From positions 1 to 64,000 of the forward strand of contig NZ_CP009528.1 in assembly GCF_000970025.1 (NCBI RefSeq): a stretch of DNA of 64,000 bases, read 5' to 3'. The DNA comes from Methanosarcina barkeri MS (GTDB lineage: Archaea > Halobacteriota > Methanosarcinia > Methanosarcinales > Methanosarcinaceae). Under the pieces are notes generated by a model. The model was not told the origin of the DNA. It worked only from the letters and a program-made list of their open reading frames with translations, and ran no database searches. Each line of letters begins with the position of its first letter. Position 1 is the first letter of the stretch. Both the position numbers and the translations under genes were made by a program. This document shows, piece after piece, positions 31,741 to 64,000 of the stretch.

Positions 31741-31902
31741 TCTGGCTAACTTCAGAGTCTGGCTACTTCTTAGTCTAGCTATTTTAAGTTCAACTGCTGC
31801 TTCTCAGTTGATTTTACTAAGAGCCGGCTTAATTCGGCTCAACCCCATCTTTTTTTCGAAATAATTAGTTATCACTCTAATAAAATATCGGGAAAATATT
31901 CC

Positions 31903-32096
31903 AATTTTTGGCTCTTCTCTGTTTCGAGTGGATAACTTACATTCATCTTCATAAATGTTAGAATAGTATATCTAAAATTTATAAACATTTATGGTTGAAA
32001 ATCACATTTGAGCGTGATGTTTCTCTTTTTGGTCTAGTTACTTTCTAACTAAGCAATTATTTTCAATCCATACAAAACAGCGAAGAGCCAATTTTT
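31903..32096. mobile_element. MITE-like element with GGCTCTTC inverted ends
   Basis: Inverted ends GGCTCTTCTCTGTTT (31910-31924) and AAACAGCGAAGAGCC (32075-32089) match at 14 of 15 bases and enclose about 150 AT-rich non-coding bases. This is the form of a short non-autonomous insertion element or a deleted insertion sequence. No target duplication was confirmed. Confidence 0.6.
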
Positions 32097-32103
32097 AATA
32101 TCG

Positions 32104-32126
32104 ACCTACGAAAGTAGGTTCTTATT
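32104..32126 (+). terminator. GAAA-loop hairpin with T-rich tail
   Basis: ACCTAC and GTAGGT form a perfect 6-base-pair stem around a GAAA tetraloop, followed by TTCTTATTTTT. It could end transcription from the left or be part of the adjacent element. Confidence 0.5.
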
Positions 32127-32274
32127 TTTCAGCTTTATTTTTTCGTGTCTCTAATTATAAATTCTCTTATATTTCTCCAAGTCATCCAATACAAATTCTC
32201 TGACCTCTATTAACGCATTATAGTACTGTATTTTTATTTGTATTCTGTTGTTATGATGTATAATAAGTTTATAA

Positions 32275-33303
32275 TTAGACTGAATTTTTGTTAATTCTGT
32301 AGAAACAGTATGGGTCATTGTGAAATTTACCCGAAGCTGCATAAGAATTTGATGAGCAACCTCCCAAGCACTCCATAGCTTTATTGCAAGAACTGCAGTT
32401 TGATCCTAATTCTTTATCTGAAAAGCGACGAGTATAAGCAAAAGAATCAGGGTGGAACCATATACTCCAAAAATCATCCTTGCGCAGATCACCTTCTATC
32501 AAATTATCTGGTAAAGATAAACATCCTTTCACCTTGCCGTCACTGGTTATGCTGCAAGTTACCCAACCAGCAGGACAACCGCGCCAAGGTCTTTCACAAT
32601 TCGAGATTCCGTCTATATATTCGAGTCCATCGCTGCATATAATATGTGTACCTTCATTTTTAGATTTAGGTTCCCAACATTGTATAAATTTTCCAAGCTT
32701 AAGTATGCCTGCATTGTCCATGTAGAGCTTTTTAAAGTTGTTCGCGCGTCCCATTGGAATTAGTGGCTGGACTCTCCAATATTGTATTCCAACAGATTGC
32801 AGTAAATGAAGGATGGCTGGCAGCTCATCAATATTAAGGTTGTTGACCGTGGTAATGACAATTATACGAATATTCTCCTGCTGGAGTAATTCTATACTTC
32901 TCAGCACCTGTTTAAAGGAACCTTTGTGTCCTCTGATGTAATCGTGAGTTGTTTCAAGCCCATCCAGGCTTATACCAACATCAGAAATGCCCACATTTTT
33001 CATCTGCGATACTATTTTCGAGTCTAGAGCAAGACCATTAGTGATTATGTTTGTCGATATTCCCAGATCCTTTAGGTATAGAGCTATCTCTGCCCAGTAT
33101 GGACTCAACAAAGGCTCACCACCCGTAAAATTCACTTCTTGCACTAGTAATTCCGGAAACTGGTCACATATTTTTAATGCTTCTTCTTTTGTAAGTTCAT
33201 TATGCCTCGGCAAACCAGCTGCTGAGGCACAATGATTACAGCGTAGATTGCATGCTAGTGTTAGTTCCCATCCTAGATTAAATGGAAATCCTTCAAAGCT
33301 CAA
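32275..33303 (-). CDS. Radical SAM/SPASM maturase-like protein
   Basis: Radical SAM enzyme of 342 residues. The SAM cluster is C18-x3-C22-x2-C25 (LACNLRCNHC), followed by FTGGEPLLS at about 59. The C-terminus is a SPASM domain: cysteines at 236, 243, 250, 261 and then C303-x2-C306-x5-C312-x3-C316 and C333, enough for two auxiliary clusters. SPASM enzymes typically mature peptides or proteins. The start is TTG with GAGGA six bases upstream. It follows a 138-residue gene by 38 bases, its probable substrate or partner. Exact chemistry is unknown. Confidence 0.88.
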   Translation of the reverse strand: MSFEGFPFNLGWELTLACNLRCNHCASAAGLPRHNELTKEEALKICDQFPELLVQEVNFTGGEPLLSPYWAEIALYLKDLGISTNIITNGLALDSKIVSQMKNVGISDVGISLDGLETTHDYIRGHKGSFKQVLRSIELLQQENIRIIVITTVNNLNIDELPAILHLLQSVGIQYWRVQPLIPMGRANNFKKLYMDNAGILKLGKFIQCWEPKSKNEGTHIICSDGLEYIDGISNCERPWRGCPAGWVTCSITSDGKVKGCLSLPDNLIEGDLRKDDFWSIWFHPDSFAYTRRFSDKELGSNCSSCNKAMECLGGCSSNSYAASGKFHNDPYCFYRINKNSV

Positions 33304-33341
33304 ATTGATTCCTCATTTTACAAAAATAGATAAATCGCTCT

Positions 33342-33758
33342 TTATTTTCCATTATTTTTTATAAAGTTCTGGATAGAGATATAATCTCCAGCTCTTAAAA
33401 CTGGTTCTCTCCCATCCAATATGTCATCGCCAATATTCATAATTGCAGCAGCAATCTCAGCTGGAGGTTCTTTCTTGTCAATTAAATATGCATTTACATG
33501 CGTCTCAACTAATTCTTCGAACTGTTTGCCAAAGTTGCCCTCAACTACTGCTCCAAATTGTTCGCCGAAGTTGCCGGTATTAGTATGTTTTCCTAGCTTG
33601 TCATAAAAATCAGGTATTACTAAATACTTTACCCAGTTTTTTCTGTCAAAATCAGTTACTCTAACTTTATTTATTGCTTTCTCCAGTTTTGCATTTCCAA
33701 GCATGTCTACCTTCGCTATTGTACTTCCACGCCTATCTACGTGTACACGTTTATCCAT
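33342..33758 (-). CDS. Cysteine-free protein upstream of radical SAM gene, candidate precursor
   Basis: No family recognised. The 138 residues contain no cysteine and a tandem 12-residue repeat, GNFGEQFGAVVE and GNFGKQFEELVE (62-85). The N-terminus is basic (MDKRVHVDRRGS) and the C-terminus ends in NNGK. GAGGAG precedes the ATG. It lies 38 bases upstream of the radical SAM/SPASM gene on the same strand, the usual place of a peptide precursor or recognition protein. It is longer than most RiPP precursors, so it could instead be a binding partner. The precursor role is inferred from context only. Confidence 0.7.
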   Translation of the reverse strand: MDKRVHVDRRGSTIAKVDMLGNAKLEKAINKVRVTDFDRKNWVKYLVIPDFYDKLGKHTNTGNFGEQFGAVVEGNFGKQFEELVETHVNAYLIDKKEPPAEIAAAIMNIGDDILDGREPVLRAGDYISIQNFIKNNGK

Positions 33759-34305
33759 ACAATCTTCTCCTCTATTTGCTTAACTTGTGTCAGTGAACAA
33801 TTATTAAGCTAAAATTCTTTAGTTTTATTATCAAAAATATTAGGAACTTCTATCATATATATTTATTTATATTTGAGGAAAGATATATAATTATTAATTA
33901 TTATAAGCTTGTTTCAAAATTGTATACATTGGTCATCGGTTAAGGAATTTTCTCGCCTGATAGCTATTGATTTTGCATGAAAAGTCGGACTTAAATTTTG
34001 GTCTATTTACATGAAATCGATACCAAGTTTCAGCTCATAATCTATTAATATATTTAATAAATGTTGAGGAAATTGACGCAATTTATCACGATTCCTCACT
34101 TAACAGAAGACGCATGGAATGTTATTATAAAAGCATATACAGAAAATGGATTTTATGCTTAACTGATGACGTATGAATACATTTTTTATAGATCGCATCT
34201 TAAAAAATACAAATGAATACTATTTTATTTCCGGAAAACAAGATTCTTGTTTACTGGGTTTTAAGCTGAAGATGAATTTTAGAGGTCGGTTAGGAGGACA
34301 GAATA
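33759..34305. other. AT-rich spacer holding a MITE-like element
   Basis: Divergent region between the precursor-like gene and the first small paralogue. It holds the MITE-like copy at 33927-34116 and, to its right, a partial inverted end CTTAACTGATGACGTATG (34158-34175) that resembles the element terminus again, suggesting nested or repeated insertion. No gene. Confidence 0.6.
33927..34116 (-). mobile_element. MITE-like element, family 1, copy A
   Basis: Element of about 185 bases with ends TCATCGGTTAAG (33933-33944) and CTTAACAGAAGA (34099-34110). Internally it shares GAAATTGACG, CATGAAATCGATACC and the TTTTGCATGA segments with copy B (reverse orientation) and copy C at the window end. It has no coding capacity. 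Confidence 0.8.
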
Positions 34306-34563
34306 ATGAGTTGTAAACCGATAACGTTTCGTAATGTTAATCCTGATACTTTTAATTGTATGAAGAAAAAGCTTCAGGGATACGGAATCCATGTCCCAGA
34401 AGGTTATAGAGGAGAGCTTTCTGGCAAAGGAATTACTGCGAATTTCGAATGGGACGGACAGTCTAATCTTACCATTACAATTACGGAAAAACCTTTTATC
34501 GTTAGTTGTGAAATCGCGGCTCAGAAAATAAAAAGTTTTATAAGAGCTTGCCATGGCTCGTAA
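34306..34563 (+). CDS. Small conserved protein, paralogue 1
   Basis: Protein of 85 residues with unknown function. It shares FRNVNPDTFNCMKKKL, YGI, the GELSGKGI loop, a WDG strand and a C-terminal IRACHG with the next gene. The pattern suggests a small alpha/beta fold with two conserved cysteines (C18 and C82). AGGAGG precedes the ATG. The second paralogue lies 103 bases downstream, and a third, decayed copy is at 37993-38143. Confidence 0.75.
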   Translation: MSCKPITFRNVNPDTFNCMKKKLQGYGIHVPEGYRGELSGKGITANFEWDGQSNLTITITEKPFIVSCEIAAQKIKSFIRACHGS

Positions 34564-34666: not shown

Positions 34667-34948
34667 ATGGGCGAAAGGAAACTGGATACTGAGGGCTGCC
34701 AGGGGATTAAATTCAGAAATGTAACTCCTGAAGTATTTTCCTGTATGAAGAAAAAACTTGAGAGCTATGGAATTGAAGTTTCATCCGGAAATTCCGGTGT
34801 TCTTGAAGGAAACGGAATAGTTGCCCATTTTAGCTGGGATGGTGAGGCAAATCTGTCAATTGAGATCAAAGAAAGACCTCTGGACACTTACTGCGGGCAG
34901 GTAAGTGGTAAATTGAGGGCTTTCTGGCGTGAGTGTCAGGGATACTGA
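34667..34948 (+). CDS. Small conserved protein, paralogue 2
   Basis: Protein of 93 residues, clearly homologous to the preceding gene (KFRNVTPEVFSCMKKKLESYGIEV, GNGIVAHFSWDG, FWRECQG). It has a 13-residue N-terminal extension. The upstream site is weak, and the ATG shown gives MGERKLDTEG. Tandem duplication is evident from the protein match. Function unknown. Confidence 0.75.
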   Translation: MGERKLDTEGCQGIKFRNVTPEVFSCMKKKLESYGIEVSSGNSGVLEGNGIVAHFSWDGEANLSIEIKERPLDTYCGQVSGKLRAFWRECQGY

Positions 34949-35008
34949 AGAAATTAAATGAAAGAATATTTTCTCATTGCTGTGATCTGATGGGATTGTC
35001 AAGACAAA

Positions 35009-36427
35009 TCAGTTATTTCTGTTCCTTAGATAAGAAGGCCAGGCAGCAATTACACATATCAGGGCAGCTATAACCAGCGTCATTCCTGAAGATAGGGTCA
35101 GGTTGTTGATATCTGTTTCAGGCAATAACTTTGCGGAAAGGATGACAGACGCAAAAGAAGCTCCTATTGCCATCCCAAAATATCTGCCCGTATTTGCAAT
35201 ACTGGAAGCGATAGCTGCTCTATCTTTATGTAATCCCCTCATTATCTCAATATTATTGGGGCTCTGGAAAAGAGAATACCCAGCTGCAAATAGACCCATT
35301 GATAATAAAACGATCTCTAATTTTTCACTCAATGTTGCCCAGGCGCATATCAGCAAGGCTGAGAAGGCTATTAACAGTCCCGTAGCTGAAAAGTATTGCC
35401 ATAGAGAACGATCGTACAACCATCCTATTATTGGAGATCCAATAACTAGAACAAGGGGAATGATCATCATCATTGTTCCTACGTGTAATGGGGTAAACTT
35501 CAGCACTCTCTCTAGATAGAAAGGCATGGTTATATTCAGCATGAAAACTGCAGCAAAGAAAAGGACCATGCTCAAGAGAGGTAGAAGAAACATTGGTTCA
35601 CGGAAAACTCTGATATCAAGAATTGGGTTTATCTGCTTTTTCTCATTCCATTTCAGGAATATGAATGCTGAAGACATAGTTGTAAAAGAGGTCAGAACTT
35701 CCATAGAATACAAGCCTTTTGTAGCTATTGCATTGAACAGAACCATAACTGATGTAATGCCAATTGCAAAACTTATAGCTCCTGTCCAATCTATGTTCTC
35801 TCCTTTTTTTCTTTCTCCTTTTTCTCTTATATCTGTTATTCTTAGATAAGGAATGCCTAACAAGAGTCCAATTATTCCTATCGGGATATTAATATAGAAA
35901 ATGGATCTCCAGTCTAACACTTCGATCAATACCCCGCCAATACCCGGACCTGCAAGGCTTCCGATGGCTACGGTCGCACCCATGATACCGATTGCCTTTC
36001 CCTGCATATCAGGCGGGTTAAGCCTGTATATAATGGCCATGCTGATAGAACTCGTCATGGCTCCTCCAATTGCTTGAGCTATCCTGAAAGTGATGAGTAT
36101 GGGAAGAGAAGGAGCTATACCACATCCAAGAGAGCTGATTGTAAAAAGAGCGATCCCTCCAAGGAACATCTTTTTCAGTCCCGTGTATGCAGAAAGCTTT
36201 CCAAAAATCATCATAGATGCCGTGATAGTGATCAAATATGCAGTTACAACCCATTGTGATTCGGAGATCGTATTTCCGAAGTACGCAGTTATACTTGGCA
36301 GTGCTATGCTTACAATAACAGTATCCAGCACGGACATGAAAAGTCCAAGCAGCACAATTCCCATCGCAAGCATGCGCTCTTTTCCACTCAAAATATTACA
36401 TTCCGAAGCATTCCCATCTGTCTTCAA
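35009..36427 (-). CDS. MFS transporter, DHA2/EmrB type
   Basis: Multidrug efflux-type transporter of 472 residues with about 14 predicted membrane helices. Motif LDTVIVSIALPSI in helix 1, the GPGIGGVL motif C near 155 and a WRSIFYINIPIG segment after it mark the EmrB/QacA group. The start is a TTG overlapping the stop of the upstream methyltransferase (TTGA) with GAGGAGG before it, so the two are translationally coupled. Substrate is not predictable. Confidence 0.9.
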   Translation of the reverse strand: MKTDGNASECNILSGKERMLAMGIVLLGLFMSVLDTVIVSIALPSITAYFGNTISESQWVVTAYLITITASMMIFGKLSAYTGLKKMFLGGIALFTISSLGCGIAPSLPILITFRIAQAIGGAMTSSISMAIIYRLNPPDMQGKAIGIMGATVAIGSLAGPGIGGVLIEVLDWRSIFYINIPIGIIGLLLGIPYLRITDIREKGERKKGENIDWTGAISFAIGITSVMVLFNAIATKGLYSMEVLTSFTTMSSAFIFLKWNEKKQINPILDIRVFREPMFLLPLLSMVLFFAAVFMLNITMPFYLERVLKFTPLHVGTMMMIIPLVLVIGSPIIGWLYDRSLWQYFSATGLLIAFSALLICAWATLSEKLEIVLLSMGLFAAGYSLFQSPNNIEIMRGLHKDRAAIASSIANTGRYFGMAIGASFASVILSAKLLPETDINNLTLSSGMTLVIAALICVIAAWPSYLRNRNN

Positions 36428-37029
36428 AGTAGAGCCTCCTCTTGATTTTGGTTATTTTCATTATTGGTTGCCGAAAATACCAGGAAGCTCTGTTCTGGAA
36501 GGAATGTGTGATTTTCTACCAGGCTGTATCCTGCCACATTCATTTCGTTAATTATTGTCGCTTTTGGGACATAGTGGCAGAAGAGTCGGTGTGAGCTCCA
36601 TTTACCCCTTCCATCATAATCTATAATCGCAATCTTTGCTCCGGTGCTCAGGGAGTCGACTAGATTACTGAAATAAATTTCTCTGTTGGGAAGATGATGG
36701 TATACATTACGCAGAAAGACCAGGTCCAGTTTTTCATTCATAAGAGAGAACCTGCTGTCTTCAGCAAATACTGTTATAATGTTATGGAAACCGTTCCTTT
36801 CTGAATTGCTTCTTACAAAGTCAAGAAGCCCTTTGTTTGTATCGACCGCATATACCTTTCCTTCTCTACCGACATCTCTGGCAAAAAGGAAGGAAAAATA
36901 GCCTCCGCCCGAGCCAACGTCTGCAATTTGCTGGCCGGGTTTCAGGGAGAGAGCTTTTATTATTTCTTCAGATTTGCTCTTCGCACTTGATGCCCTTCTA
37001 TTTAACATTCTGGCTTTTATATTGTTCAC
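36424..37029 (-). CDS. Class I SAM-dependent methyltransferase
   Basis: Methyltransferase of about 201 residues with motif I IADVGSGGGYFSFLFA (about 36-51), motif II AVDTNKG and LVFLRNVYHHLP typical of small-molecule methyltransferases. The frame start is GTG at 37029, and an ATG at 37008 is an alternative. It is coupled to the MFS transporter downstream. Together they may modify and export a compound, under the divergent regulator. Confidence 0.87.
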   Translation of the reverse strand: MNNIKARMLNRRASSAKSKSEEIIKALSLKPGQQIADVGSGGGYFSFLFARDVGREGKVYAVDTNKGLLDFVRSNSERNGFHNIITVFAEDSRFSLMNEKLDLVFLRNVYHHLPNREIYFSNLVDSLSTGAKIAIIDYDGRGKWSSHRLFCHYVPKATIINEMNVAGYSLVENHTFLPEQSFLVFSATNNENNQNQEEALL

Positions 37030-37146
37030 TGTTTCAACTTCCGGAAACGTTCATCGAGGAATTTGAGTTCCTGTTCGACCATCTATTTCACGAATAGTTA
37101 TACTCCAGTGCGTTTATTTAAGAAAAATCTGGAACAGACGTTACAG

Positions 37147-37166
37147 TAGTTACATTAATATAACTA
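37147..37166. promoter_or_regulatory. Palindromic operator candidate
   Basis: TAGTTACATTAATATAACTA is a 20-base palindrome with only one mismatched pair. It lies 29 bases before the regulator ATG in the 165-base divergent spacer, a natural place for auto-regulation and control of the methyltransferase/MFS operon. Confidence 0.55.
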
Positions 37167-37194
37167 AGTGGCATAATTGCCAGAACGTAAAGAA

Positions 37195-37935
37195 ATGAAA
37201 AGTCACGAGCTTTTTTCCGAGCTGTCATCCGGGAGTAGGCTTGCTATACTAAAGGCGCTTGAGAAAGAACCATTGAAATTCACCCGGCTGACAACTATAA
37301 TAGACGCTACATCTCCAGAAGCAGCGAGGCAATTGAACCGTCTGCTCAAAAGTAGTCTAATCTGCAAAGATATCGAGGGATATTATTCACTTACTTCTTT
37401 CGGAAAGTTGGTAGTATCGTCAATACCAAATCTGGAGATTATAGCTCAAAGGTCAGATTTTTTCCTTCATCATGATACGTCTTCTATACCTCCCAAGCTG
37501 CTCAGGGATCTTGGTGCTTTTAAAGATGTGGAAGCTGTTCAGGGAGTTTTTGAGCTGGTCAATAAAACGACACAGCTTTTCGAAGAGATTCATGAATATG
37601 CCTGGTACCTCACTGATAGTTTTCCTCATTTCTTCATACCTCGCATAGAAAAGAAGATCAACGATGGAGTGAGTTTTCGTTTTGTCTATCCCGAAAATCT
37701 TGGTAAAAGCCCTATGTTTGATTTGCCGGAAAGAATCCTGAATGCTGTAGAAACCCGTTCTATAGATGAGGTTAAAATAGTCATTAATGTCAGTGATAGG
37801 TTCGGTTTACTTGCACTTCCCGGGCTTGATGGAAAGATTGACCGTGACGATGCGCTTATCGGGTACGACAGTAGATTCAAAGACTGGTGTAAAGAAGTTT
37901 TTGAATATTACTTTAAAACCTCCAGTCAATGCTAG
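37195..37935 (+). CDS. HTH regulator with FilR1/DUF1724 domain
   Basis: Transcriptional regulator of about 246 residues: an N-terminal winged helix-turn-helix (ELFSELSSGSRLAILKALEKEP, then PEAARQLNRLLKSSLI, about 1-70) and a C-terminal FilR1-type domain (about 130-245) seen in methanogen regulators. The ATG at 37195 is preferred over a TTG at 37177. It is divergent from the methyltransferase/MFS operon with a palindrome between them. Ligand unknown. Confidence 0.87.
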   Translation: MKSHELFSELSSGSRLAILKALEKEPLKFTRLTTIIDATSPEAARQLNRLLKSSLICKDIEGYYSLTSFGKLVVSSIPNLEIIAQRSDFFLHHDTSSIPPKLLRDLGAFKDVEAVQGVFELVNKTTQLFEEIHEYAWYLTDSFPHFFIPRIEKKINDGVSFRFVYPENLGKSPMFDLPERILNAVETRSIDEVKIVINVSDRFGLLALPGLDGKIDRDDALIGYDSRFKDWCKEVFEYYFKTSSQC

Positions 37936-37992
37936 TGTCGGGTCAATTAAATTGATTTATAGTACCAGGAAGGTGTGTAGATCAGAAACTCC

Positions 37993-38143
37993 AATTGTTT
38001 GAAGGCAATGGCATAGTTTTCCATTTTGCTGAGATGGTGAAGCAAACCTGTCAATTGAGATCAAGGAAAGACCTCCAGACACTTACTGTGGGCAGGTAAG
38101 TGGAAAATTAAGGGCTTTCTGGCGTGAGTGTCAGGGTTTATGA
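37993..38143 (+). pseudogene. Decayed third copy of the small paralogue
   Basis: About 150 bases match the 3' half of the gene at 34667-34948 closely (GAAGGCAATGGCATAG, GAGATCAAGGAAAGACCTCC, GGGCTTTCTGGCGTGAGTGT). One base is missing in the stretch for FSWDG, breaking the frame, and the 5' half is absent. It sits just after the FilR1 regulator gene. Confidence 0.85.
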
Positions 38144-38249
38144 AGGTGAATCCAAGCCATGCTTACATCAGGATTACGTGTATTACAACAAATTCATGAT
38201 ACTGCCAAACTGCTACTAAAATTTAGCAATTCCTGAACTTGTACTTTAA

Positions 38250-38779: not shown

Positions 38780-39232
38780 TCCTCATGCACATCATATGCA
38801 CACGCTAAATATAAAACTATCTTTCTGTGAAGTCGAAAAATACTCATGAGTCTTCGGTTAAGTGAGGACTCATGACAAATTACGTCAATTTCCACAATAT
38901 TTGTCAAATATTTTATAAATAAGAAGCTGGAACAGAGTCTCGATTTCATGTAAATAGGCCAAAATTTAAGGCTAGCTTCTAATGCAAAATCGATAGTTTT
39001 CAGGCAAGAAAATTCCTTAACCGATGACCAATGAAGAAATACTAGTTTTATAAAATTTATAGAACTTTAGATATACTGCTTGATTTGGCAGTGTGCATAA
39101 TTTTCTGTAAAATAACAAATCTCATAAAGTAGTTTGGTAGAAGATTTCATATCAGAAGCTCAATTTTTACCAGAGTATACAAAAATTTGACTTCGAATTT
39201 ACAGCAAATTCGTGACATTACCATCTTTTGAT
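38780..39232. other. Spacer with MITE-like copy B
   Basis: AT-rich spacer of 453 bases between the TA pair and the HEPN-motif gene, both on the minus strand. Most of it is the MITE-like element. The remaining 190 bases show nothing. Confidence 0.6.
38845..39033 (+). mobile_element. MITE-like element, family 1, copy B
   Basis: Ends TCTTCGGTTAAG (38851-38862) and CTTAACCGATGA (39016-39027) enclose about 155 bases. The interior matches copies A and C over long stretches (CGATTTCATGTAAATAGGCC, CAAAATTTAAGG, TGCAAAATCGATAG). Inverted relative to copy A, so the two flank a segment of about 4.7 kb. Confidence 0.82.
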
Positions 39233-63051: not shown

Positions 63052-64000
63052 ATTTTATACCGTTTCCGTAAATTCGATGTCAGTTTGATTTTGAAGTTTA
63101 GAGTTTTAAATTTGCGTAGAAATCCTCTTTAACAAGGAATCTTACTTAACGTTAAATGAATAGTCTGATACATTTTTAGTGTATATTCAGGTCTGATACA
63201 TTTTTAGTATATATTTAGTTTTTTGCAATTGACTTGTATGAATTTTTCGAAATAATTTTTCAGGAATTTGCATTCTTGCCAGGAACTGTACCTGATAAAA
63301 GATATAATTGGGTGACAATAAGTGATGCATCGAAGGAATTATAGATAAATTTTAAGAACCTCCATAGTGGTATTCATTTATCTAATTATTACTTTACTAT
63401 TTATGATTGAAAAAACATTGATTATTACAGTATATTATGAAAAAATGATTTTTAAAAATCCACGCTAGGAAATCTATCCTCAAACATTCGATAGCAATAC
63501 GCTGTTGGCAATTAGTTTCAGCTTCCAGAAAGCGCTTTTGAGAGCCTCTCAATTCCATGACTGCTATAAATATCTTTTAAGTATTTTCCAGATTTTTACC
63601 TTTTTCAAAGATTGAAAAATGTCAGGCAATTAACGGCTAGCATGAGACTCCATCAGGAAAGCATTGTTGTTTTAAACTAATAGTTCTGTTGCTTATTATA
63701 CTGAAAAATCAATTTTCAATATATTTAGAATTGTTAAGGATGCTTCTTCCGACTAGCTAATGATAAAGTAGTTAAAATATTCTGGTATTTGGGTAATAAC
63801 CGTTACATTTTCGGCTCAAAGTTCCCTCCCGCAAATGAAAAATTAAAAATGCTTTTCAATCTAATCTTTATAAATGCGTCTTCGGTTAAGTAAGAAATCG
63901 TGACAATTGTGTCAATTTCCTCAACAGTTACTAAATATTTTAATAAATTATGAGCTGGAATAGGGTATCGATTTCATGTAAATGGGCCAAAATTTAAGGC
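63052..64000. other. Right-edge intergenic DNA with MITE-like copy C
   Basis: AT-rich region without a gene. A 31-base direct repeat with core GTCTGATACATTTTTAGT lies at about 63162 and 63193, 110-165 bases upstream of the HEAT-repeat start. The right end holds MITE-like copy C, cut by the window. Confidence 0.6.
63877..64000 (+). mobile_element. MITE-like element, family 1, copy C (truncated by window)
   Basis: Starts TCTTCGGTTAAG at about 63881 and matches copies A and B through GTGTCAATTTCCTCAACAG, CGATTTCATGTAAATGGGCC and AAAATTTAAGGC. The right end lies outside the window. Confidence 0.8.

Follow-up and report, generated by a model that had tools for sequence, protein, structure and literature searches.

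Two adjacent open reading frames were found on the minus strand of the window, by which we mean the whole 64,000-nt stretch analysed (positions 1 to 64,000 of contig NZ_CP009528.1 from Methanosarcina barkeri MS). The upstream gene (33342..33758, ATG behind AGAGGAGA) encoded a 138-aa protein without cysteine, hereafter the partner and the proposed substrate; after a gap of 38 bp, it was followed by a radical SAM/SPASM enzyme of 342 aa (32275..33303) with a TTG start and the ribosome-binding-like sequence AATGAGGA upstream. Both frames and their order (partner from 33758 to 33342, then enzyme from 33303 to 32275; 32275-33758 in all) agreed with the original prediction, which had read them as a precursor-then-maturase unit matching no described family.

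The enzyme matched the Pfam families Radical_SAM (3e-27) and SPASM (4e-7) and carried the radical SAM/SPASM signature, CxxxCxxC plus CX9-15GX4C ... CX2CX5CX3C ... C. Its [4Fe-4S] motif CNLRCNHC (C18, C22 and C25; 33229..33252, minus strand) was invariant in the alignment. The SPASM domain (PF13186; 32305..32577, minus strand) held seven auxiliary-cluster cysteines (C243, C261, C303, C306, C312, C316 and C333) spaced as C243-x12-G-x4-C261 ... C303-x2-C306-x5-C312-x3-C316 ... C333; every one was invariant in the enzyme clade, confirming the full SPASM cysteine set that had been predicted. The dN/dS of the enzyme was approximately 0.12, indicating purifying selection.

The partner had no match in Pfam, NCBIfam or PHROGs, and cysteine was absent from five counted partner sequences and from the remaining three of the alignment, so the earlier description of a cysteine-free protein outside known families held. 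The doubled 12-residue repeat GNFGxQFxxxVE was also real: residues 62-73 (GNFGEQFGAVVE) and 74-85 (GNFGKQFEELVE) were identical at 8/12 amino acids and 29/36 nucleotides, and this level was reached by 0/300 residue shuffles. However, the repeat (33504..33575, minus strand) was a local 36-bp tandem duplication, it appeared in the alignment as a 12-residue insertion of the window partner alone, and it was absent from every homologue. The suggestion that the repeat is the site of modification was therefore not supported, and we rejected it as the target of the enzyme.

Genomic setting of the pair

The pair was contained in an insertion of approximately 2.36 kb (31860..34222); in a close relative, G078, the corresponding syntenic site was empty. 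A MITE-like repeat with inverted ends (31909..32090; 26-nt arms; 21 matches in the genome) was found on one side of the genes, and a second, unrelated dispersed repeat of 190 bp (33927..34116; at least 40 copies in the genome) was found on the other. The island between mobile elements that had been proposed was thus reduced to a small insertion with two short non-autonomous repeats (180-190 bp), flanked by core genes in an otherwise syntenic chromosome. Copies of the 190-bp repeat, apparently non-coding, were present in the window at 33927-34116, 38845-39033 and 63874-64000.

Two observations concerned the neighbouring core genes. The 85- and 93-aa genes at 34306 and 34667 (GYG/SYG) were considered as substrates and rejected, as they formed a core pair whose family was present in 30/31 genomes of the genus. 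Further along (34803-38145), the 3' end of the core 93-aa gene occurred twice, at 34803-34950 and, with 88% identity, at 37999-38145. A set comprising an MFS transporter, a methyltransferase and a regulator-like gene lay between the two, an arrangement that resembles an insertion accompanied by duplication of this end; L065 showed the same one.

Distribution of partner and enzyme

No second copy of the partner was recovered by single-sequence search of 112 genomes in the family of the host. When the enzyme was used as the query, 84-85% identical enzymes were recovered in two Candidatus Methanoperedens assemblies (L032 and L033, which appear in the genome collection as G499 and G511), with a partner homologue directly upstream in each (59 and 47% identity to the window partner, respectively). 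A three-row partner profile matched three more genomes from another family (f26), in which the partners lay directly upstream of same-clade enzymes 49-51% identical to that in the window, and a larger profile added a third Methanoperedens genome, G502, with two full copies and one fragment. Partner and enzyme clade (E below 1e-100) were detected in the identical 4 genomes of a 393-genome sample of the phylum (G000, G219, G378 and G439), and L032, L033 and G502 also had both; coverage outside the phylum was one contig scan for each gene. Partner relatives were thus present in seven archaeal genomes (the host Methanosarcina, three Methanoperedens and three of f26), in each of them directly upstream of a same-clade enzyme, in constant order and with a spacing of 38-71 bp across loci. 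Among the genomes found, there was no case of the enzyme clade without the partner, and no partner relatives were detected in IMG/VR viral contigs or PLSDB plasmids.

These data show that the partner keeps to a single enzyme clade and that it is maintained as a protein. Partner homologues beside SPASM genes, as the original prediction anticipated, were found in 7/7 genomes, supporting the precursor-then-maturase unit; the opposite case, a partner that commonly occurs where radical SAM genes are missing, was looked for and not seen, the partner and enzyme genomes being the same. The pair also showed the strict association of a precursor-like gene with a peptide-modifying enzyme that serves as a criterion for RiPP systems. 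Given the dispersed repeats on either side, one might suppose that two unrelated genes had hitch-hiked in a repeat-rich insertion. This is highly improbable, because the same association, order and spacing recurred in seven genomes of three archaeal families, indicating that the pair is not a product of chance. As protein identity reached 84-85% across families, lateral transfer is apparently the simplest reading for the pair, in line with the acquired unit suggested at the outset. Methanoperedens-like DNA (81% over approximately 1.3 kb) started right at the stop codon of the enzyme.

Apart from the G502 cluster, no third gene travelled with the enzyme across loci, and no exporter, leader peptidase or protease was common to them. 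With neither an exporter nor a protease at most loci, a modified protein that stays inside the cell is a likelier product than a secreted peptide.

The G502 cluster (L079:9977-16157) was operon-like, with short gaps between genes on one strand. It started with the partner, the SPASM enzyme and a B12-binding radical SAM enzyme. Next came a 230-aa protein, in which the motif EP[AV]H occurred six times, then two 69-aa paralogues, and finally a radical SAM enzyme resembling the YydG epimerase. A second partner copy, in convergent orientation, followed the YydG-like gene. The presence of two partner copies and three radical SAM enzymes strongly favours a role in peptide or protein modification over an unrelated one, and shows that the pair can belong to a multi-step pathway. 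The third G502 copy was a 44-aa remnant on another contig, where the 9 kb that were read contained no radical SAM gene. As a whole, the cluster has the appearance of a peptide pathway with several enzymes that has not been described before.

Partner anatomy and enzyme relationships

Seventeen positions were invariant across the 8 full partner sequences, although with 8 sequences from three archaeal families "invariant" rests on little. Before residue 80, these positions were only Tyr45 and Leu46 (33621..33626, minus strand), the sole invariant residues of a fast-evolving N-terminal half and the proposed target. Conserved candidates for modification were Tyr45-Leu46, Tyr91 and the AGDY motif at 123-126. 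In the single pair compared by halves, the two closest Methanoperedens partners (L032 and L033), the N-terminal 53 codons had a dN of 0.36, a dS of 0.53 and a dN/dS of 0.67, and the C-terminal 56 codons had values of 0.06, 0.41 and 0.14, respectively, which is the pattern expected for a variable target part joined to a constant recognition part. In these sequences, variation is concentrated towards the N-terminus and the C-terminal part stays constant, the reverse of the usual RiPP order; the variable core and conserved recognition part typical of RiPP precursors were therefore both found, in reversed order and in few sequences.

AlphaFold models built from a three-sequence alignment, with the window partner and the L032 partner as queries, contained three C-terminal helices in both cases (block confidence approximately 70-87) and had little confidence N-terminally, which may be a mere effect of the three-row alignment. 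Overall confidence was 62 for the window partner, and the L032 model was no better. The helices correspond to the proposed recognition domain, a conserved region (33351..33527, minus strand) that includes KEPPAEIA...AGDYISIQN. Foldseek returned no PDB match with E below 0.001 for the partner model, whose confidence was only 62.

Conserved polar residues in the 8-sequence alignment (N89, N108, D111, D112, D125, Y126 and Q130), together with the Lys-rich tail of the f26 partners, would fit a functional protein such as an enzyme subunit carrying a protein-derived cofactor made by the enzyme, with no RiPP involved. The stand-alone two-gene unit at most loci, with no shared exporter or protease, fits this as well. 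We nevertheless consider it unlikely, since the partner has no known domain or fold and a fast N-terminal half would be unusual for a catalytic subunit. It overlaps with the substrate reading that we prefer, the sole difference being the purpose of the modified protein.

The partner-associated enzymes formed one clade in two trees (support 100/99 and 99/98), placed as sister to the Tyr-Gly ("splicease", TIGR04103/TIGR03913) group with modest support (80/77 and 86/90); a topology joining them more closely to the Methanosarcina Tyr-Gly enzymes was not rejected (p 0.098). The best NCBIfam model for the window enzyme was TIGR04103 (nif11-class peptide radical SAM maturase 3), which we take to be the PlpX family, with 214.7 bits over a full-length alignment, far under the curated cut-off of 725 bits. 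The other nearest model was TIGR03913 (GDL-motif peptide-associated maturase; 175 bits).

Relatives in the sister group were repeatedly found beside small X-Tyr-Gly peptides, indicating that the lineage is a peptide-modifying one. In keeping with the assignment of TIGR04103 to PlpX, a Nostoc gene of this family adjoined a Nif11 peptide with the C-terminal sequence ALYGLPPELF, and a small ORF lay downstream. Azospirillum relatives had DUF1843 Tyr-Gly peptides alongside the enzyme, and candidate Tyr-Gly ORFs were present beside relatives in Agathobacter (with VMYG) and in a genome of the Gastranaerophilales (with PLYG). A 149-aa Gastranaerophilales ORF outside any Pfam family (L041:5467-5913), with IKPLYGVPV near its N-terminus, was located upstream of a related SPASM enzyme. 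The host genus itself had a second SPASM enzyme (L003-L010), 37-38% identical to that in the window, with an unannotated ORF of approximately 50 aa bearing PLYG/MYG sites about 450 bp upstream in 7/8 loci (L003-L008 and L010). These ORFs are candidate archaeal spliceotide precursors. They had two X-Tyr-Gly sites, PLYGIVRPLYGVPLK or KYGVV...MYGVI; one example is the ORF at L003:1004-1162, with its enzyme at L003:1471-2562.

Since the nearest models have neighbours carrying LYG, MYG or PYG peptides, the window enzyme might be an ordinary splicease that excises tyramine from an X-Tyr-Gly site. This is very improbable: the score was 214.7 against a cut-off of 725, the clade was separate, Tyr-Gly was found in none of the 8 partners, and no small X-Tyr-Gly ORF was common to the partner-enzyme loci.

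In the splicease reaction, PlpX acts together with the RRE protein PlpY to excise tyramine from X-Tyr-Gly (PMC11002830, PMC10533398). The partner could by analogy be a substrate-binding helper in a PlpY-like role, with the enzyme acting on a peptide encoded elsewhere, given that the related system needs a small RRE protein (PMC11002830), that a small ORF lies downstream of the Nostoc maturase gene and that the conserved region of the partner is predicted to be compact and helical. However, the partner had no match to the RRE/PqqD family and no similarity to the Nostoc candidate, although a very divergent RRE may escape detection. Neither profile similarity to a PlpY-like protein nor a fold match was found, the gene lies upstream rather than downstream, and no X-Tyr-Gly ORF common to the loci was available as the peptide. 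Two copies in one cluster and a fast-evolving half fit a substrate better, and we regard the helper role as doubtful. In the absence of profile similarity, the partner was also rejected as a relative of DUF1843, Nif11 or PlpY.

Proposed function and comparison with known systems

We propose, with moderate confidence, a dedicated maturase-substrate pair with recognition through the C-terminal helices and tyrosine-directed modification in the N-terminal half. The three-helix region (residues ~78-136) would be the part recognised by the enzyme, and the fast-evolving N-terminal half would carry the target, for which the likeliest candidate is the invariant Tyr45 in its X-Tyr-Leu setting, with Tyr91 and Tyr126 as alternatives. 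The enzyme would cleave SAM at the CxxxCxxC cluster and abstract hydrogen at or next to the target tyrosine, and the two SPASM clusters would act as electron acceptors, yielding a cross-link, a backbone change or an excision. These roles of the radical SAM and SPASM parts follow established knowledge of the superfamily. The logic would be shared with the sister splicease clade and the target sequence would differ. As the small protein was confined to the side of the enzyme, the pair probably represents a new means by which archaea modify a protein chemically, akin to splicease but without its target sequence. The full proposal, an archaeal sister group of splicease with tyrosine-directed radical chemistry (excision, cross-link or backbone change) at X-Tyr-Leu and a substrate bound via its C-terminal helical domain, which would be a hitherto undescribed modification, is tentative and rather unlikely.

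Little work exists on the SPASM enzymes with which methanogens and methane oxidisers modify peptides and proteins, and the pair connects a methanogen with an anaerobic methane oxidiser, apparently by lateral transfer. Sactipeptides and ranthipeptides need cysteine in the substrate, whereas the partners have none. Most RiPP precursors are shorter than the partner, whose recognition-like part is at the C-terminus. With regard to the epipeptide system YydFG, a YydG-like enzyme was present in the G502 cluster, but the window enzyme is outside the YydG family. The TIGR03913/DUF1843 systems resemble the pair in having a substrate-like gene upstream whose tyrosine site lies close to the N-terminal end and whose C-terminal part is conserved and includes GD[LY]; however, DUF1843 peptides are approximately 60 aa, mostly contain Tyr-Gly, occur in several copies and have no profile similarity to the partner. 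The Methanosarcina X-Tyr-Gly units (L003-L010) differ in having a PLYG/MYG ORF of approximately 50 aa about 450 bp upstream instead of a 138-aa protein. The pair also resembles splicease PlpXY/TIGR04103, a sister clade in the trees, in which a SPASM maturase likewise stands beside a small substrate and PlpX can sit in epimerase-containing clusters (PMC11002830), as does the G502 enzyme. The window pair is distinguished from splicease by a score far under the family cut-off and by the lack of a Nif11 leader, X-Tyr-Gly and a PlpY-like gene. A splicease-adjacent clade with an exclusive and different partner offers promising ground in the search for new tyrosine radical chemistry and protein-labelling tools.
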